Under the pieces are notes generated by a model. That model was given only the letters and a program-made list of their open reading frames with translations, was not told the DNA's origin and searched no databases. From positions 1,674,001-1,738,000 of the forward strand of contig NZ_JBBKTU010000001.1 of the NCBI RefSeq assembly GCF_037892605.1: a stretch of DNA of 64,000 nucleotides. The letters run 5' to 3'. Every line of letters starts with the position of its first letter. Position 1 is the first letter of the stretch. Source of the stretch: Lacibacter sp. H407. Its GTDB lineage: Bacteria; Bacteroidota; Bacteroidia; Chitinophagales; Chitinophagaceae. The position numbers and the translations under genes were made by a program. Below are positions 38,134-45,226 of the stretch, piece by piece.

Positions 38134-38165
38134 TTTGGAAAATTGCATGTATGTACATACATTTG
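38134..38165 (+). promoter_or_regulatory. marR promoter with overlapping operator 1
   Basis: TTTG (38134-38137), 20 bases, perfect -7 TACATTTG (38158-38165). The 16-base perfect palindrome ATGTATGTACATACAT (38147-38162) covers the spacer and half of the -7 element, so a bound dimer would block RNA polymerase. A copy of its core lies before the next gene. Confidence 0.8.
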
Positions 38166-38169
38166 CATA

Positions 38170-38628
38170 GTGAAACTGGAACAAGCAATACAAAGTGTGA
38201 ATTTTAAAAACGAAACCCATAAAGCGGGGCTGAATATATTATATACAGCCTGGTGGTTAAAGACCCTGATGAGCCGGGAGTTGAAAGACTTTGGCTTAAC
38301 GCATGAGCAATACAATGTACTGCGTATCCTTAAAGGTAAGTCACCCGATGAAATGTGTGTGAAGGATATTGCAGGTCGAATGATCGAAAAAAGCTCGAAT
38401 GTACCAAGGATCATTGATCGTTTGGTGCTGAAAAAGCTGGTGAAGAGAACCACTGATGCAAACGACAAAAGGCACACGGTAATGGCGTTAACAGGAGCCG
38501 GGTTAAATATCCTGGAACTGAGTACACAGCGGATCAACAATGTGTTTGATGCAACCCTTCAAATTACGGAAGCCGATGCGGGTTTGCTCAATCAGTTACT
38601 GGAGCAGATCAGGGCAAAAGAAAGTTGA
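38170..38628 (+). CDS. MarR-family transcriptional regulator
   Basis: A 152-residue MarR protein with a winged helix: FGLTHEQYNVLRILKG, the recognition helix region IAGRMIEKSSNVPRIIDRLVLKKLV, then the wing TTDANDKRHTVMALT. The start is the GTG at 38170, because the preceding in-frame codons have no family resemblance and KLEQAIQS...F matches the usual MarR opening in this phylum; a GTG at 38197 is the alternative. With the promoter ending at 38165 the message would start at about 38169. It has no Cys, so sensing is by ligand rather than thiol oxidation. Likely autorepressor and controller of the six genes that follow. Confidence 0.88.
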   Translation: MKLEQAIQSVNFKNETHKAGLNILYTAWWLKTLMSRELKDFGLTHEQYNVLRILKGKSPDEMCVKDIAGRMIEKSSNVPRIIDRLVLKKLVKRTTDANDKRHTVMALTGAGLNILELSTQRINNVFDATLQITEADAGLLNQLLEQIRAKES

Positions 38629-38645
38629 TATTTTTTTAAACAAAT

Positions 38646-38663
38646 ACATGTATGTACATGTAA
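38646..38663 (+). promoter_or_regulatory. Operator 2, before the pirin operon
   Basis: TACATGTATGTACATGTA shares the 12-mer ATGTATGTACAT (38648-38659) with operator 1. TTG at 38625-38627 and TACATGTA at 38646-38653 (18-base gap) form a plausible promoter that the operator overlaps in the same way as at marR. Confidence 0.75.
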
Positions 38664-38676
38664 TAAATAAGAAGTC

Positions 38677-39390
38677 ATGAAAGCAGTAATTCATAAAGCA
38701 GCAACAAGGGGCCACGCCAATCACGGCTGGCTCAACAGCTACCATAGTTTCAGCTTTGCCGGTTATTACAACCCTGAGCGGATCCATTTTGGTGCACTCC
38801 GTGTATTGAATGATGATTCGGTAGCAGCAGGTATGGGCTTTGGTACACATCCACACGATAACATGGAAATTATTTCCATTCCGTTAAGTGGAGATTTGAA
38901 ACACAAAGACAGCATGGGTACAGAAGCAACCATCAAGCAAGGCGATATACAGGTGATGAGTGCAGGCACAGGTATTTCACACAGTGAAATGAATGCTAAC
39001 AAAGACAAAGAGGTAAAATTTTTACAGATATGGGTTTTCCCAAACAGGAAAAATGTGCAGCCACGTTACGGACAAATTACGTTGGATGAAAACAAAATGA
39101 AGAACAATCTACTGCAGGTGCTTAGTCCAAACGCAGATGATGAAGGCGTATGGATCCACCAGGATGCATGGTTCAGTTTAGGAAATCTGGATAAAGGCTT
39201 TGCAACCGATTATAAACTGAAAGGAACAAATACCGGGGTATATGCTTTTGTACTGGAAGGCGATGTAACCATCAATGGTGAAGCGCTTAACAAAAGAGAT
39301 GGTCTCGGTATCAGCGAAACAGATACACTCAACATTACAGCAGATTCTGATGCAAGATTACTACTGATGGAAGTACCCATGCTCAACTAA
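38677..39390 (+). CDS. Pirin-family protein (YhhW type)
   Basis: A 237-residue bicupin of the pirin family. The N-terminal cupin has the metal ligands in FGTHPHDNMEIISI and GTGISHSEMN (His-His-His-Glu). The opening SYHSFSFAGYYNP is typical of the YhhW/quercetin dioxygenase-like branch. Pirins of this type can oxidise flavonols or related electron-rich aromatics and are often induced by oxidative or electrophile stress. First structural gene behind operator 2; paralogous to the pirin at 41254. Confidence 0.92.
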   Translation: MKAVIHKAATRGHANHGWLNSYHSFSFAGYYNPERIHFGALRVLNDDSVAAGMGFGTHPHDNMEIISIPLSGDLKHKDSMGTEATIKQGDIQVMSAGTGISHSEMNANKDKEVKFLQIWVFPNRKNVQPRYGQITLDENKMKNNLLQVLSPNADDEGVWIHQDAWFSLGNLDKGFATDYKLKGTNTGVYAFVLEGDVTINGEALNKRDGLGISETDTLNITADSDARLLLMEVPMLN

Positions 39391-39438
39391 ACGTTTAAAT
39401 CAACAATTCATAAAAACAAAAATCTAAACACAAACAAA

Positions 39439-39960
39439 ATGGCAACGTACAAAATTGACGCATCGCACAGTGACATTATCTTCAAGGTAAAACACCTGAT
39501 GATCACGACCGTAACAGGACAATTCAAAAGCTTTGATGCTACATTATCTGCTGATGCAGAAGATTTCAGTGATGCAGTAGTAACCTTTACTGCAGATATC
39601 AATAGTGTAGATACACGCAGCGAACAAAGAGATACACATCTGAAAAGTGACGACTTTTTTGCTGCAGAAAAATATCCTGAATTAAAGTTTGTTTCTACAT
39701 CAGTTAGTAAGAAAGATGACGGGTTGGTTTTGAAAGGTGATCTTACGATCCGTGATGTAACAAAACCAGTTGAATTGAAAGCAGATTTCAATGGTGTAGT
39801 AGTTGATCCTTGGGGACAAACAAAAGTAGGTTTTGAAGCAGAAGGAAAAATCAAGCGTAAAGAATTTGGTTTAGGCTGGGATGCTGTAACTGAAGCTGGT
39901 GGTGTGGTAGTAAGTGATGATGTGAAACTCCAGTTCCACGTTCAGTTTGTAAAGCAATAA
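39439..39960 (+). CDS. YceI-family protein (cytoplasmic form)
   Basis: A 173-residue lipocalin-like YceI domain: YKIDASHSDIIFKVKHLMITTVTGQFKSFDATL, then VDTRSEQRDTHLKSDDFF and ITKPVELKADFNG-type strands (RDVTKPVELKADF). The family binds isoprenoid quinones or other long lipids. There is no signal peptide, which differs from the periplasmic E. coli YceI. It is followed directly by a short hairpin that may reduce expression of the downstream genes. Confidence 0.93.
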   Translation: MATYKIDASHSDIIFKVKHLMITTVTGQFKSFDATLSADAEDFSDAVVTFTADINSVDTRSEQRDTHLKSDDFFAAEKYPELKFVSTSVSKKDDGLVLKGDLTIRDVTKPVELKADFNGVVVDPWGQTKVGFEAEGKIKRKEFGLGWDAVTEAGGVVVSDDVKLQFHVQFVKQ

Positions 39961-39962
39961 TG

Positions 39963-39983
39963 AAAACGGGCAACGCCCGTTTT
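39963..39983 (+). terminator. Hairpin inside the pirin operon (attenuator candidate)
   Basis: Perfect 9-base stem AAAACGGGC/GCCCGTTTT with a three-base loop, 2 bases after the YceI stop and 18 bases before the next ATG. The run of T is part of the stem, so read-through is likely. Confidence 0.65.
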
Positions 39984-40001
39984 AAAAAGCAATCGTAAAA
40001 C

Positions 40002-40862
40002 ATGAAACAGATCAGGTATACAAGGAAAGCGGCTCCTGCTCATATGGTAGGCGACGGGTTTAAAGTAAGAACATTTATTTCTTCGGCGATGTGGAAGGAC
40101 ATGAGCCCTTTCCTGATGCTTGATTACATTGAACCTACAGAATATTTACCTACCGATCATCCCCGTGGCGTGGATGTGCATCCGCATAAAGGATTTGAAA
40201 CAGTGAGTATTTTATGGGAAGGTGCATTGGCACATGAAGACAGCAGCGGTGGTAAAGGCAAAATTTTTGCAGGAGATGTACAATGGATGACAGCCGGTGC
40301 TGGTATTCTTCACAAAGAATTTCATGAAGAAGAGTTTAGTAAGAAAGGTGGGGTATTGCATGGTGCCCAGCTTTGGGTAAATCTTCCTTCAAAAAATAAA
40401 TCAACAGCACCTGCTTACCAGGACATCCGTTCGAACAATATTCCCGAGATACAAATCGGAGAAGACAAAGGAAAGATCCGCATCATTGCCGGAGAAATGA
40501 ATGGGATAAAGGGTCCTGCGAATACATTCACTCGTATTAACATTTTTGATGCACATGCGAAAGCAGATGCATCATTTGATCTGAATGTTGTGGATGGCGA
40601 TCATACAACACTGCTTGTTTTGAAAGGAACTGTTCTTATCAATGATGACAAAACAGCACGTGAAGGTGAAATGCTGGTATTTGAGAATACCGGAGAGAAC
40701 ATTCATATTCAAACAAACAATGAAACACACTTGTTATTACTAAGTGGCGAACCGATCACAGAACCGGTAGCAGCTTATGGTCCGTTTGTAATGAATACAC
40801 AGCAGGAAATTATGCAGGCGATCGATGATTACAATGCCGGTAAATTTGGGCATCTTAATTAA
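40002..40862 (+). CDS. Pirin-family protein (classical length)
   Basis: A 286-residue pirin with the standard N-terminal cupin: VDVHPHKGFETVSILWEG and AGAGILHKEFHEEEF supply the iron ligands. The C-terminal cupin (about 180-270) is also complete, ending before MQAIDDYNAGKFG, the usual pirin tail. It is more distant from the two shorter pirins of this operon. The likely role is oxidation of reactive aromatics or redox sensing. Six bases separate it from the OsmC gene. Confidence 0.94.
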   Translation: MKQIRYTRKAAPAHMVGDGFKVRTFISSAMWKDMSPFLMLDYIEPTEYLPTDHPRGVDVHPHKGFETVSILWEGALAHEDSSGGKGKIFAGDVQWMTAGAGILHKEFHEEEFSKKGGVLHGAQLWVNLPSKNKSTAPAYQDIRSNNIPEIQIGEDKGKIRIIAGEMNGIKGPANTFTRINIFDAHAKADASFDLNVVDGDHTTLLVLKGTVLINDDKTAREGEMLVFENTGENIHIQTNNETHLLLLSGEPITEPVAAYGPFVMNTQQEIMQAIDDYNAGKFGHLN

Positions 40863-40867
40863 TACAA

Positions 40868-41248
40868 ATGATCAACTCATTCATTGGCGTAGAAAAATAC
40901 AAAGTAACACATAGCAATGGCCGTCACCAGTTTTATGCTGATGAACCGGTTGACAAAGGAGGAATGGATACTGCGCCAACACCTGATGAGTTGTTAGAAT
41001 CAGCATTGGCCAGTTGCACCTTAGTTACCTTACGAATGTACACCGATCATAAGCAATGGAATGTAGGAGCAATTGATATTTCTGTTTTATTGAAACGTGA
41101 AGAAGGCAAAACCATCATCACAAGGAAATTGAAATTTCAACATCCACTAACTAATGAACAACAACAGCGTTTGATCCAGGTTGCCAAAAATTGCCCGGTA
41201 TCAAAAACATTGGGAGCGGCATCGGAATTAAACGTACAGATCAACTAA
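40868..41248 (+). CDS. OsmC-family peroxiredoxin
   Basis: A 126-residue OsmC/Ohr-fold protein. The two expected redox cysteines are present: Cys50 in ALASCTLVTLRMY and Cys109 in KNCPVSKTLG. The PTPDELL stretch before the first Cys is typical. It would reduce organic hydroperoxides in the cytoplasm using a thiol donor. Six bases after the pirin stop and six bases before the next pirin start, so it is firmly inside the operon. Confidence 0.93.
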   Translation: MINSFIGVEKYKVTHSNGRHQFYADEPVDKGGMDTAPTPDELLESALASCTLVTLRMYTDHKQWNVGAIDISVLLKREEGKTIITRKLKFQHPLTNEQQQRLIQVAKNCPVSKTLGAASELNVQIN

Positions 41249-41253
41249 AATAT

Positions 41254-41964
41254 ATGCAACATATTTTATTCAACGGTTCGGAAAGAGGAGTGAAAGATAT
41301 TGGTTGGTTGAAAAGCAATTTCACGTTTTCATTTTCATCTTATTATAATCCATCGAAGAATGGATTTGGTTTATTGAAAGTGTTCAACGATGATTTTGTG
41401 GAAGCCGGCAAAGGCTTCGGCTTGCATCCACATCAGAATATGGAGATTATCAGCATTATGCTGAACGGACAAATGAATCACAAAGACAGTCTGGGTTATG
41501 CGGATGTAGTGGAAAAAGACTGGGTGCAGATCATGAGCGCCGGTAGCGGATTACGACATGAAGAATACAACGTAGGAACCGATGAAGTGAATTTTCTGCA
41601 GATATGGATCGAACCCAAGCTGCAAAATATCAACCCACGTTATCAAAGAAGAAATTTTCCAAAAGATCAACGGAAGAATCAATTGGTAACGGTGGTGAGT
41701 AATGAAGAAGGGCAGCAACATTGCTGGATCAATCAGAATGCAAAGCTCAGTCTCGGTTGGTTTGAAGCAGAGAAGTCGGTTACTTATCAATTCAATCCTG
41801 TGAATAAAGGTATTTTTGTATTTCTGATGGAAGGCGAAGCCGAAGTAAACGGCATCAAAATTGGCAGAAGAGATGCAGTGGGCTTGTGGGAAACTGAACA
41901 AGTGGAGCTCCGGTTTGTAAAAGAAACAGAATTCATCATCATTGAAGCACCAATCAATCATTAA
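41254..41964 (+). CDS. Pirin-family protein (second YhhW type)
   Basis: A 236-residue pirin, a close paralogue of the protein at 38677: GLHPHQNMEIISIM and GSGLRHEEYN carry the metal ligands, and the opening NFTFSFSSYYNP corresponds to SYHSFSFAGYYNP. ATG 41254 is chosen; the frame open from 41191 runs back over the OsmC gene. The divergence from the first copy (for example in the second cupin) suggests a different substrate rather than a fresh duplication. Confidence 0.9.
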   Translation: MQHILFNGSERGVKDIGWLKSNFTFSFSSYYNPSKNGFGLLKVFNDDFVEAGKGFGLHPHQNMEIISIMLNGQMNHKDSLGYADVVEKDWVQIMSAGSGLRHEEYNVGTDEVNFLQIWIEPKLQNINPRYQRRNFPKDQRKNQLVTVVSNEEGQQHCWINQNAKLSLGWFEAEKSVTYQFNPVNKGIFVFLMEGEAEVNGIKIGRRDAVGLWETEQVELRFVKETEFIIIEAPINH

Positions 41965-41967
41965 AAA

Positions 41968-42525
41968 ATGAACATCGAAATAATAGCAGGCAGCCCCAGA
42001 GAGAATAGTGTAACTCATCGTGTGGCATTGTTCCTCAAAAAAATATTAACGGAACGTACTTCACATACGGTCAACATCATTGACGTTCGGGAGTGGGAAC
42101 TTCCTTTGCTTCAAAATGTGTTTGTATCAGTTGATGCAACACCGGAAGAGTTTAAGCCATTGAGCACCCGTATGTTCAATGCACATGCATTTATACTGGC
42201 TACTCCGGAGTACAATGGAACGTATACATCGGCCATGAAAAATTTGCTGGATCATTATCCTAAGCAAAGTCACAAGGCGTTTGGAATTGTTACAGCCAGC
42301 CCGGGTATGATGGGCGGCATCAGGGCCACACAGCAAATGCAGCTGTTGATCAATGCATTATTCGGTATTGCCAGTCCACATATGTTAGTGATTGGCGGTG
42401 TTGATAAGAAATTTGATTCGGACGGAAACCTGCTCGATGAAGCTTTTCAAAAGAATGTAGACATTTTTATACGTGAATTTTTATGGCTGGCGGAGAGTCT
42501 TCATCCCGAAACGGTCCTTAATTAA
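41968..42525 (+). CDS. NAD(P)H-dependent FMN reductase / quinone reductase
   Basis: A 185-residue flavodoxin-like oxidoreductase of the NADPH-dependent FMN reductase family. GSPRENSVTHRVA near the N terminus is the phosphate loop, and TPEYNGTYTSAMKNLLDHYP at about 73-92 is the family hallmark that binds the isoalloxazine ring. It would reduce quinones, azo compounds or chromate by two electrons, avoiding semiquinone formation. Three bases after the pirin stop; last gene of the MarR-pirin operon. Confidence 0.93.
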   Translation: MNIEIIAGSPRENSVTHRVALFLKKILTERTSHTVNIIDVREWELPLLQNVFVSVDATPEEFKPLSTRMFNAHAFILATPEYNGTYTSAMKNLLDHYPKQSHKAFGIVTASPGMMGGIRATQQMQLLINALFGIASPHMLVIGGVDKKFDSDGNLLDEAFQKNVDIFIREFLWLAESLHPETVLN

Positions 42526-42549: not shown

Positions 42550-42557
42550 TACCTTTG
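42550..42557 (+). promoter_or_regulatory. -7 element before the amidophosphoribosyltransferase-like gene
   Basis: Perfect TACCTTTG, 49 bases before the ATG; no TTG at a good -33 distance. Confidence 0.45.
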
Positions 42558-42606: not shown

Positions 42607-44454
42607 ATGAGCGACGAAATAAAACACGAATGCGGCTTGGCCTTCATTCGTTTACGCAAACCCTTCTCTCATTACCAGAAACAATATGGCTCGGTGCTGT
42701 ATGGCCTTAACAAGCTGTACCTGCTCATGGAAAAGCAACACAACCGTGGGCAAGACGGTGCAGGTATTGCAGCCGTTAAACTGGATGTAGAACCAGGTTA
42801 TCCTTTTCTCCATCGGTTACGCAGCAGTGCAAATCAACCCATCGCCGATCTGTTTTTTAAAGTAGGGCAGGAAGTGCAGGAGCTGGAAAAATACCAGCCC
42901 GATATCAAGCAACACGCCGGTTTAATGAAAGGTCATTTGCCTTTTTTAGGTGAGTTGATGCTGGGGCATCTTCGCTACGGCACACAGGGAAAAAACAATG
43001 TAGAATTCTGTCATCCCTTTATCAAACGCAATACACATTCTTCACGCAACCTGGCATTGGCAGGCAATTTCAATCTGGTAAATACCGATGAGCTGTTTAA
43101 TCTCATTAATATTGATCCGGGTGAATTTCAAAAGCAAAGCGATCTGGCAGCAATGATGGAAGTAGTGCATCATTTTCTGGTAAAGGAAGATGAGCGTGAT
43201 CCGAATAATCCTTCTATCACAAATGTGTTGAGAAAAGCAACACCGTTGTTTGATGGCGGATACACTATTGGTGGAATGACGGGAAACGGAGCCAGCTTTG
43301 TAATGCGTGATGCACATGGTATTCGTCCGGCTTATTATTATGTAGATAATGAAGTGATCGTTGCAGCAAGTGAGCGTGCAGCCATTCGTACAACATTTAA
43401 CGTTGGCGAAAATGAAGTGTTGGAATTGATGCCGGGACAGGCATTGATCGTAGAAGCAGATGGCAGCTATCACATTGATCAGATACTGGAACCGAAAGAA
43501 CGCAGAGCCTGTTCGTTCGAACGTATTTATTTCAGTAGAGGAAGCGATGAAAAAATTTATCGTGAGCGCATTACACTTGGTCACAAATTAAGCAAACGTA
43601 TACTTGAGCATATTGATTACGATTTGAAGAATACCATCTTCTCCTATATTCCCAATACAGCTGAAGTGGCATTTTATGGTTTGGTAAAAGGGATGGAAGA
43701 ATATCTCAACCAGATCAAAGTGCAACGGATCATGAGCTGGGGGAAAGATTTTGATGAAGAGAAGTTGAACGAGATGATCACACGTAAGATCAGGCAGGAA
43801 AAAATTGCGATCAAAGATGTGAAGCTGCGTACGTTCATTACGGAAGACAGCAGCCGGAACGAAATGGTGCAGCACGTCTATGATATTACGTACGGCACGG
43901 TCAAGAAAGATGTAGATACATTGGTAGTGATCGATGATTCGATTGTACGTGGTACTACATTAAAAGAAAGTATTGTTCGGATGTTGGGTCGCCTTGGTCC
44001 AAAGAAAATTATTGTTGTATCAAGTGCGCCACAGATACGTTATCCCGATTGTTATGGTATTGATATGAGTAAGCTTGGCGATTTTGTTGCCTTCCGTGCA
44101 GCTATTGAATTGTTGAAAGAAAGAGGAATGACGGATGTAATTGATGAAGCCCATACCACCATCAAAGAAATGCAACGCAACAATCAATTGCATACGGAGA
44201 ATGTAGTGCGTCGTTTGTACAAACCATTTACAACAGAAGAGATCAGTGATAAAATTGCACAGTTAATTACACCGGCAGGATTTACCATTCCGGTACAGGT
44301 CATCTACCAAAACATAGAAGATCTGCATGCCAGTTGCCCCACTAATACAGGCGATTGGTATTTTACCGGCAACTATCCAACTCCCGGCGGTAACAGAGTA
44401 TGTAACAAAGCCCTTTTAAATTACCTCGATGGTAAAAATGTGAGAGGTTATTAA
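42607..44454 (+). CDS. Amidophosphoribosyltransferase-like protein (PurF paralogue)
   Basis: A 615-residue protein with an N-terminal glutamine amidotransferase (Ntn) domain and a C-terminal phosphoribosyltransferase domain. Cys9 in HECGLAF would be the catalytic nucleophile after removal of eight residues, and RGQDGAGIAA follows. The PRPP-binding loop VVIDDSIVRGTTLKES is near residues 440-455. At 615 residues it is clearly longer than normal PurF (about 470-510) and has extra sequence around 45-110. It may be a second, Bacteroidota-specific form with a modified role in purine synthesis rather than the sole PurF. Confidence 0.85.
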   Translation: MSDEIKHECGLAFIRLRKPFSHYQKQYGSVLYGLNKLYLLMEKQHNRGQDGAGIAAVKLDVEPGYPFLHRLRSSANQPIADLFFKVGQEVQELEKYQPDIKQHAGLMKGHLPFLGELMLGHLRYGTQGKNNVEFCHPFIKRNTHSSRNLALAGNFNLVNTDELFNLINIDPGEFQKQSDLAAMMEVVHHFLVKEDERDPNNPSITNVLRKATPLFDGGYTIGGMTGNGASFVMRDAHGIRPAYYYVDNEVIVAASERAAIRTTFNVGENEVLELMPGQALIVEADGSYHIDQILEPKERRACSFERIYFSRGSDEKIYRERITLGHKLSKRILEHIDYDLKNTIFSYIPNTAEVAFYGLVKGMEEYLNQIKVQRIMSWGKDFDEEKLNEMITRKIRQEKIAIKDVKLRTFITEDSSRNEMVQHVYDITYGTVKKDVDTLVVIDDSIVRGTTLKESIVRMLGRLGPKKIIVVSSAPQIRYPDCYGIDMSKLGDFVAFRAAIELLKERGMTDVIDEAHTTIKEMQRNNQLHTENVVRRLYKPFTTEEISDKIAQLITPAGFTIPVQVIYQNIEDLHASCPTNTGDWYFTGNYPTPGGNRVCNKALLNYLDGKNVRGY

Positions 44455-44701: not shown

Positions 44702-44734
44702 ACTATGTGGCTGAAATCAAATATTAATGAATAC

Positions 44735-45226
44735 ATGAAATCGCTCCTTCTCATTCGCCACGCTAAAAGCAGTTGGGATAATCCGATGCAGAACGACTTT
44801 GACAGGCCGTTGAATGCAAGAGGATTAAAAGATGCACCGATGATAGCGGAACGGTTGATAGAGCGGAAGATAAAGATTGATGCCTTTATCAGCAGCCCGG
44901 CAAAACGGGCCAAACAAACCTGCGAACTGTTTATGCAAGTGTTTAAAAAAGACGCAGGAAGTATGATCCTCCAATCACAATTATATCTTGCGCAGCCAGA
45001 AGTTTTTTTGCAGACCATCAAACAACTGCCGGCTGGCATTTCACATGCCGCAATCTTTTCGCACAACAATGGTATTACTGAGTTTGCGAATACATTGTCA
45101 GCCACACAGGTTGACAATATGCCTACCTGTTCAGTATTTGCAGTTCATATCCCTATTGAAAATTGGAGCGATTTTACAAAGGCCAAAAAGGAATTCTGGT
45201 TTTTTGATTATCCGAAACTGGTGTAA
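44735..45226 (+). CDS. sixA: SixA-like phosphohistidine phosphatase
   Basis: A 163-residue histidine phosphatase. The RHAKS motif starts at Arg8-His9 (LLLIRHAKSSW), the second catalytic His is in AIFSHNNGI, and SSPAKRAKQT is the SixA-type phosphate loop. ATG 44735 is chosen over 44705, which would start inside the 87-bp element's flank. SixA removes phosphate from histidine in phosphotransfer proteins in the cytoplasm. It converges with the lipoprotein gene, with only two bases between stop codons. Confidence 0.88.
   Translation: MKSLLLIRHAKSSWDNPMQNDFDRPLNARGLKDAPMIAERLIERKIKIDAFISSPAKRAKQTCELFMQVFKKDAGSMILQSQLYLAQPEVFLQTIKQLPAGISHAAIFSHNNGITEFANTLSATQVDNMPTCSVFAVHIPIENWSDFTKAKKEFWFFDYPKLV

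Follow-up and report, generated by a model that had tools for sequence, protein, structure and literature searches.

MarR-family repressors of small detoxification operons are exemplified by MhqR of Staphylococcus and Bacillus (mhqRED), which is described in PMC12893000 as sensing quinones through a pocket comprising F11, F39, E43 and H111 and as binding an operator of the form TATCTCGAA-ATCGAAATA. Pirins have been linked to related chemistry in Escherichia coli, where the yhhW and yhaK promoters are reported to be hydroquinone-induced in a YhaJ-dependent manner and a yhaK mutant to accumulate the inducer made from DNT (PMC5031710). Proteins bound to the DNA downstream of a promoter can also act on transcription that is already under way; LacI, PurR, CcpA and CodY have been described as transcription roadblocks, and RNA polymerase I (Pol I) is reported to stop 15 bp short of a roadblock site, within a stretch rich in T (PMC12366685). 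Here we describe a marR operon at positions 38134-42525 of a 64,000-nucleotide stretch of the Lacibacter sp. H407 genome (Chitinophagaceae; contig NZ_JBBKTU010000001.1, positions 1,674,001 to 1,738,000; hereafter the window). We tentatively propose that its repressor acts differently at two operators, op1 over the marR promoter and op2 just past the marR stop codon.

The operon comprises seven genes on the + strand in the order marR, pirin, YceI, pirin, OsmC, pirin and FMN reductase, with gaps of 48, 48, 41, 5, 5 and 3 bases. This arrangement and the gene names had been put forward in an original prediction made from the letters alone, and both hold against the sequence, its open reading frames and Pfam, which confirms all seven names. 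Like MhqR, the encoded MarR is a family member of the same fold and the putative repressor of its own small detoxification operon. Unlike it, the window has operators that are TACATGTAYRTACATGTA-like and do not correspond to the operator of the MhqR subfamily, and the locus further differs by its second operator past the gene, an invariant cysteine and the pirin/YceI cargo. The YhaJ regulon (yqjF, ybiJ, yhaK, yhhW, ygiD) resembles the window in its hydroquinone-induced pirin YhhW and pirin-like YhaK; YhaJ itself is described as a LysR-type regulator that is needed for induction and acts at several promoters, whereas the window encodes a MarR-type candidate repressor of one operon. With the protein roadblocks (LacI, PurR, CcpA, CodY and the Reb1/TTF1 systems of Pol I) the locus would share a DNA-bound protein downstream of a promoter and, with Reb1/TTF1 as described, a stretch rich in T immediately before the site. 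It departs from them in that a roadblock is proposed from conservation only, and in that op2 lies between the repressor gene and its cargo and has no consistent hairpin.

Matches to the window MarR are present in 68 of 147 genomes of the family (E<=1e-25). The 69 matches divide into 55 close orthologs, the window included, 13 distant paralogs and one truncated close ortholog (L077) that was left out. A held-out set of 63 named loci was drawn from the best 80 of 584 after dropping 17 that were identical to discovery loci over the first 300 bases of marR; it still includes close relatives and brings the close loci to 118 (55 discovery, 63 held-out). Judged by MarR, the closest named species is Lacibacter luteus.

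The marR gene is preceded by a sigma-A type promoter of the Bacteroidota kind (38135..38165, + strand), in which TTTG at 38135-38138 (the -33 box, assigned by eye), a 19-base spacer and the -7 box TACATTTG at 38158-38165 form the canonical pattern TTTG-N19-TAnnTTTG with a predicted +1 at 38170. The operator op1 is the perfect palindrome ATGTATGTACATACAT at 38147..38162, and it overlaps the -7 box as had been predicted; at the sequence level this is the palindromic operator over its own promoter that characterises MarR-family regulators. Its core ATGTAYRTACAT (at most one mismatch) is found within 60 bases upstream of marR in 53/55 close orthologs; no distant paralog (0/13) has it even in the nearest 100 bases, and matrix scoring recovers op1 in 59/63 held-out loci. 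It is missing from two discovery loci (L048, L051) and from held-out L165, L182 and L185, and is not visible in L145, which has only 8 upstream bases. Across the 112 op1 loci, TAnnTTTG overlaps the 20-base op1 site in 111/112 and the -7 box matches at six of six positions in 111/112. TT(T/G)G lies mostly 19-21 bases upstream of the box, in a tally where one locus may count repeatedly. The start codon follows the -7 box by exactly 4 nt in 99/112 loci (44/53 in the discovery set). Because the -7 box is placed at -12 to -5 in Flavobacterium psychrophilum (PMC9723704), this spacing predicts that transcription begins on the marR start codon itself, with +1 at its first base, which would make the mRNA leaderless. 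Leaderless mRNAs are reported as a minority in the phylum (5.5% in PMC9723704), and 5' untranslated regions shorter than 10 nt amount to about 3.7% in Bacteroides thetaiotaomicron (PMC7366714).

The second operator, op2 (TACATGTATGTACATGTA, 38645..38662), is an 18-base near-palindrome about 24 nt past the marR stop, with its centre between 38653 and 38654. It contains the 12-base core ATGTATGTACAT, whose recurrence at 38648-38659 had been noticed in the original prediction and is confirmed here. With at most one mismatch the core matches four times in the window, where 0.52 matches would be expected and where none of 100 shuffles reached four; two of the four are the first palindrome read on either strand. 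When the sequence past the marR stop is scored with a matrix derived solely from op1 sites, op2 is recovered in 41/55 discovery loci (scores 14.8-28.4), in 57/63 held-out loci and in 0/13 paralogs (best score 0.6); apart from op1 and op2, the 686,068 bases of the discovery loci contain no site with a score of at least 12. The held-out loci from which op2 is missing are L170, L176 and L182-L185. The site follows the cargo: of 100 loci that carry a pirin or FMN reductase, 98 have op2, the two exceptions being L042 and L176, and of the 18 loci that carry neither, 0 have it. L054 and L059 end less than 1.7 kb from the marR start and may hide cargo. These comparative data support two MarR operators, with MarR presumably binding at both. 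The idea that MarR represses both itself and the operon is borne out as far as two conserved MarR-type operators go, one of them over the marR promoter; op2 comes with no visible promoter.

It is in this last respect that the original prediction, which had placed the second site in the promoter region of the first pirin gene, needs revision: no sigma-A promoter is recognisable there in the 98 op2 loci, and the site comes after the end of marR, with a run of T at a fixed distance from it. In the 32 bases past the op2 centre 0/98 loci have a TAnnTTTG box, and 0/98 have one on the reverse strand; the best match averages 4.13 of 6 positions against 3.78 in shuffled sequence (forward) and 4.31 against 4.26 (reverse). 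A sigma-A promoter at op2 is therefore not supported on either strand. What is conserved instead is the T-run, which in the window is a T7 on the + strand at 38631..38637, just past the marR stop, with its last T 17 bases upstream of the op2 centre. The last T falls at -17 in 94/98 loci, and the longest run on the left of op2, usually T7-T8, reaches at least seven in 84/98, six in four and three to four in ten. The run is directional, since A7 occurs on the right of op2 in only 1/98. TTTTTT within 22 nt of the marR stop accompanies op2 in 87/98 loci and is seen in 0/20 close loci without op2, in 1/13 paralogs and in 12/214 other operon and neighbour gene ends. Because the run is one-sided, it is more likely read by the polymerase than by a symmetric MarR dimer; the missing -7 box together with a one-sided T-run at fixed spacing therefore favours control of elongation. 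No consistent hairpin precedes the run (over 88 loci the minimum free energy (MFE) of 40 nt has a median of -3.4 and z averages -0.80, with 16 loci below -2), and the window RNA folds no better than shuffles (MFE -3.4, z +0.37). An intrinsic terminator at the marR end is not generally supported by these 88 loci and the window.

The explanation that best accommodates these features, and to which we would give somewhat less than an even chance, is a local MarR repressor with two operators of different function in a stress operon. A dimer at op1, between the -33 and -7 boxes and overlapping the latter, would block initiation of an apparently leaderless operon transcript, so that marR represses itself; a dimer at op2, just past the marR stop, would serve as a roadblock, with the polymerase halted over the U7-U8 run and release or backtracking favoured. 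Leak transcription would then yield marR mRNA and not the enzymes. An electrophile, most likely quinone-like, would modify or bind the repressor, for which Cys63 is the best candidate site, and once op1 and op2 are freed the pirins, YceI, OsmC and FMN reductase could be made. A more specific version, which we hold with less assurance still, has op2 and the T7-T8 run acting as a hairpin-free, repressor-gated terminator, with the last T lying about at the stalled active site and the inducer switching both steps at once. If correct, one protein would exert two-layer repression, at initiation and at elongation, with the repressor made while its cargo is silent; the locus would be a bacterial counterpart of the RNA polymerase I terminators that combine a T-rich stretch with a roadblock, and a poorly understood pirin/YceI gene set would gain an operator motif, a regulon boundary and a candidate for its sensor residue. 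The new content lies in the link between op2 and cargo, the fixed spacing of a T-run where no sigma-A promoter is seen, a marR predicted to be leaderless and the invariant Cys63, and we do not claim that a repressor-gated T-run terminator is unpublished. Among the open-access papers searched, none describes such an operon in its title or the opening of its abstract, and absence from print is not claimed.

The sensing step can be weighed separately from op2. The window MarR matches PF01047 with 34.5 bits (cut-off 24.6), and Foldseek places it among the winged-helix proteins of the MarR family, with matches to MepR, MftR, HpaR, MhqR (9qdr) and 4-hydroxybenzoate-bound HosA. Its sole cysteine, Cys63, is conserved in 118/118 close orthologs, whereas 13/13 paralogs have Ser or Pro at that position; sensing of thiol-reactive electrophiles is suggested because the residue is invariant and absent from the paralogs. 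The AlphaFold 2 (AF2) model (predicted local distance difference test, pLDDT, 91.6) puts Cys63 directly before helix 64-70 (helix 3), in the N-cap place, and this position beside the DNA-reading part suggests that it is a good candidate for thiol-based release. Among the one-Cys thiol-sensing MarR proteins of the OhrR/SarZ/QsrR type, the reactive cysteine of OhrR and QsrR is N-terminal, whereas Cys63 of the window MarR lies just before helix 3, and the NCBIfam OhrR model scores 32.1 bits, far below its cut-off of 200. A serious alternative, if short of probable, is nevertheless that an aromatic or quinone ligand is bound in the usual MarR pocket, as reported for MhqR, and that Cys63 is structural; the quinone-sensing pocket of MhqR and the presence of MhqR, HpaR and ligand-bound HosA among the fold matches argue for this, the invariance of a single cysteine that is missing from the paralogs against it. 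The original prediction had cast MarR as such a ligand sensor: a quinone is still a candidate inducer, a pure pocket sensor is no longer the sole option, and the invariant Cys63 marks the clade.

Several observations weigh against a roadblock at op2. Held-out L176 keeps the operon, and discovery locus L042 keeps YceI and FMN reductase, each with neither op2 nor T-run. On the MarR tree op2 requires about 4 changes (shuffled mean 29.8), at least two of them forced by well-supported branches, and its conservation accordingly appears to reflect partly shared ancestry and few evolutionary events, not 118 independent ones. The cassette is also rare outside the clade: among 86 loci of other families (the 26 first examined and 60 from the next places in the match list) a palindrome of the TGTN4ACA kind, a loose pattern, lies within 60 nt past the marR stop in 12. 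A stop of bacterial polymerase ~17 bases before the centre of a roadblock is expected from work with EcoRI Q111; the roadblock literature consulted does not state it. Parts of that literature describe many repressors as poor roadblocks, and in the Pol I experiments reported in PMC12366685 a T-rich run plus roadblock gave no termination when the hairpin was left out, which counts against the proposal because no hairpin is consistently seen at the marR end. Finally, 10/98 op2 loci carry only T3-T4, and the TTT at -19 to -17, measured from the operator, stands where the -33 box does at op1; for both reasons a promoter origin of the T element is possible.

The latter points lead to the reading in which op2 lies inside a second MarR-repressed promoter serving the enzymes, the T-run being its -33 box, with a -7 box that is degenerate or read by an alternative sigma factor. 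TTT(G/A) at -19 to -16 from op2 indeed sits as TTTG does at op1, G occupies -16 in 36/98 loci, and alternative sigma motifs are reported from flavobacteria. The missing -7 box weakens this reading, since no full TAnnTTTG is found near op2 on either strand and the mean matches are close to those of shuffles; moreover, little is conserved downstream of op2 except A-richness, and a -33 box needs no run of seven or more T, which at op1 is present in only 12/112. We consider a second promoter less likely than the roadblock, though far from negligible. That op2 merely aids MarR occupancy through DNA bending, cooperativity or a loop to op1, some 500 bp distant, with the T-run as bent DNA, is improbable: the two operators are alike in sequence and T/A tracts do bend DNA, but the run is one-sided at a symmetric site and op2 follows the enzyme cargo and not marR.

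Regulation by MarR appears to be local. In the whole genome the 16-mer ATGTATGTACATACAT and the 18-mer pattern each occur once exactly; with up to 2 mismatches the 16-mer gives 3 matches (the true site and two other places) against 2 for a reversed-pattern control, and with up to 3 mismatches the 18-mer gives 10 (op1 and op2 included) against 16. The genome scan that the original prediction had called for consequently shows no further sites in clear excess of control, and no sign of a wider regulon, with such near-exact patterns, weaker sites not having been scanned by matrix.

The cargo is variable. In the close orthologs marR is followed by varying sets of pirins, YceI, FMN reductase and either OsmC or a small membrane protein. 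The cargo was counted in the 94 loci whose sequence extends 5 kb or more beyond the marR start, with each gene labelled by its best tblastn match to the window genes, so that the pirin types are approximate. Of these loci 86 have YceI, the other counts being 77 for FMN reductase, 63 for the pirin 1 type, 53 for pirin 2, 19 for pirin 3 and 16 for OsmC, and the number of pirins is three in 13, two in 36, one in 24 and none in 21. By gene content, MarR, YceI and FMN reductase are the core of the locus and the pirins are modular. Because the cargo varies to this extent, an obligatory fixed sequence of enzymes, in which FMN reductase, pirins, OsmC and YceI would act in turn as once envisaged, is unlikely. 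Pirins of two branches do occur together, and three in one operon is uncommon (13/94), not unique. The proposed tie of such genes to quinone or electrophile defence gains support from Pfam and from sequence matches in the PDB. Since E. coli yhhW and yhaK are reported to be hydroquinone-induced and the yhaK mutant to accumulate inducer, handling of quinols and quinones is the likeliest role of the cargo; by analogy with MhqR and YhaJ, quinone defence is plausible, and the operon is probably an electrophile-defence gene set.

Two variants of the locus deserve mention. In six loci (cluster c13, e.g. L101, L085 and L102) YceI is followed by a small hydrophobic protein (123 aa in L101), for which the name DoxX was dropped after the one member tested gave no Pfam family at E<=0.01. 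L170 is an orphan close marR ortholog that has kept op1 and lacks op2, and no operon gene was detected beside it.

Beyond the family, MarR relatives occur in 172/395 genomes of the phylum (E<=1e-28). A neighbourhood search across Bacteroidota, as suggested in the original prediction, finds YceI within the 1.5 kb flanks of marR at 17/26 loci first examined, and the layout with a downstream operator at only about nine of 86. These nine (L200, L201, L205, L213, L214, L216, L217, L256, L268) are those of the 12 palindrome-bearing loci that look like the cassette, the palindromes of L199, L224 and L284 being judged chance matches. Their T-runs, T3 to T8, end at -15 to -20 from the palindrome, five at -17, of which three (L214, L217, L268) are from one genus. 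To judge by these loci, the T-run/operator layout recurs with other operator sequences, rarely. Residue 63, by plain counting with no alignment, is Cys only in L199, L200 and L256 of the 86. L256, a distant MarR relative, has T8 and then the palindrome TTGTTTGAACAA just past the marR stop, with TTGTTACAACAA upstream, and is a possible independent instance of this layout with a different operator. The gene order differs in L208, L210, L211 and L218-L224, which belong to several further Bacteroidota families: there YceI precedes marR, on the strand of marR, and does not follow it.

As to the individual genes, all on the + strand, marR (38170-38628) encodes 152 aa from a GTG start; the downstream GTG at 38197 was rejected as the start because L3, E4, A6 and F12 are conserved in at least 90% and because each of the 53 discovery op1 loci begins marR with ATG or GTG. 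The three pirins represent two branches by Pfam, pirin 1 and pirin 3 combining Pirin with Pirin_C_2 and pirin 2 combining Pirin with Pirin_C, and of the five genomic places that have a pirin domain three lie within the operon. Pirin 1 (38677-39390; HPH 58-60, HxE 102-104) is of the YhhW/quercetinase branch, its best PDB sequence match being 1tq5 YhhW (E 2e-59). Pirin 2 (40002-40862; HPH 60-62, HxE 104-106) is of the classical branch (7te5, E 3e-95) and nearest to classical pirin chains, one of them named YhaK, and pirin 3 (41254-41964; HPH 58-60, HxE 102-104) has an ATG start. The pirin/quercetinase cupin domain with its HxH...HxE motif, which we take to supply the metal ligands, is found in all three. 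The YceI-like protein (39439-39960; 1wub TT1927b, E 1e-35) also resembles polyisoprenoid-binding proteins and has no Cys and, by eye, no signal peptide. The OsmC-like protein (40868-41248) carries Cys50 and Cys109 and has two PDB matches (E 2e-12 and 6e-5). The last gene (41968-42525) encodes a member of the NADPH-dependent FMN reductase family with an azoreductase/quinone-reductase-like flavodoxin fold, matching the FMN-dependent NADPH-quinone reductase 7f76 (E 6e-11) and the FMN-dependent NADPH-azoreductase 3gfq (E 1e-10).

A PurF-like gene that is often next in order was set aside as an operon member, as TACCTTTG at 42550-42557 suggests a promoter of its own. This PurF-like amidotransferase (42607-44454; cluster c0, 35 members) and a gene of the histidine-phosphatase family (44705-45226; cluster c1, 24 members) follow FMN reductase in many relatives, often with a gap of 50-57 bases.

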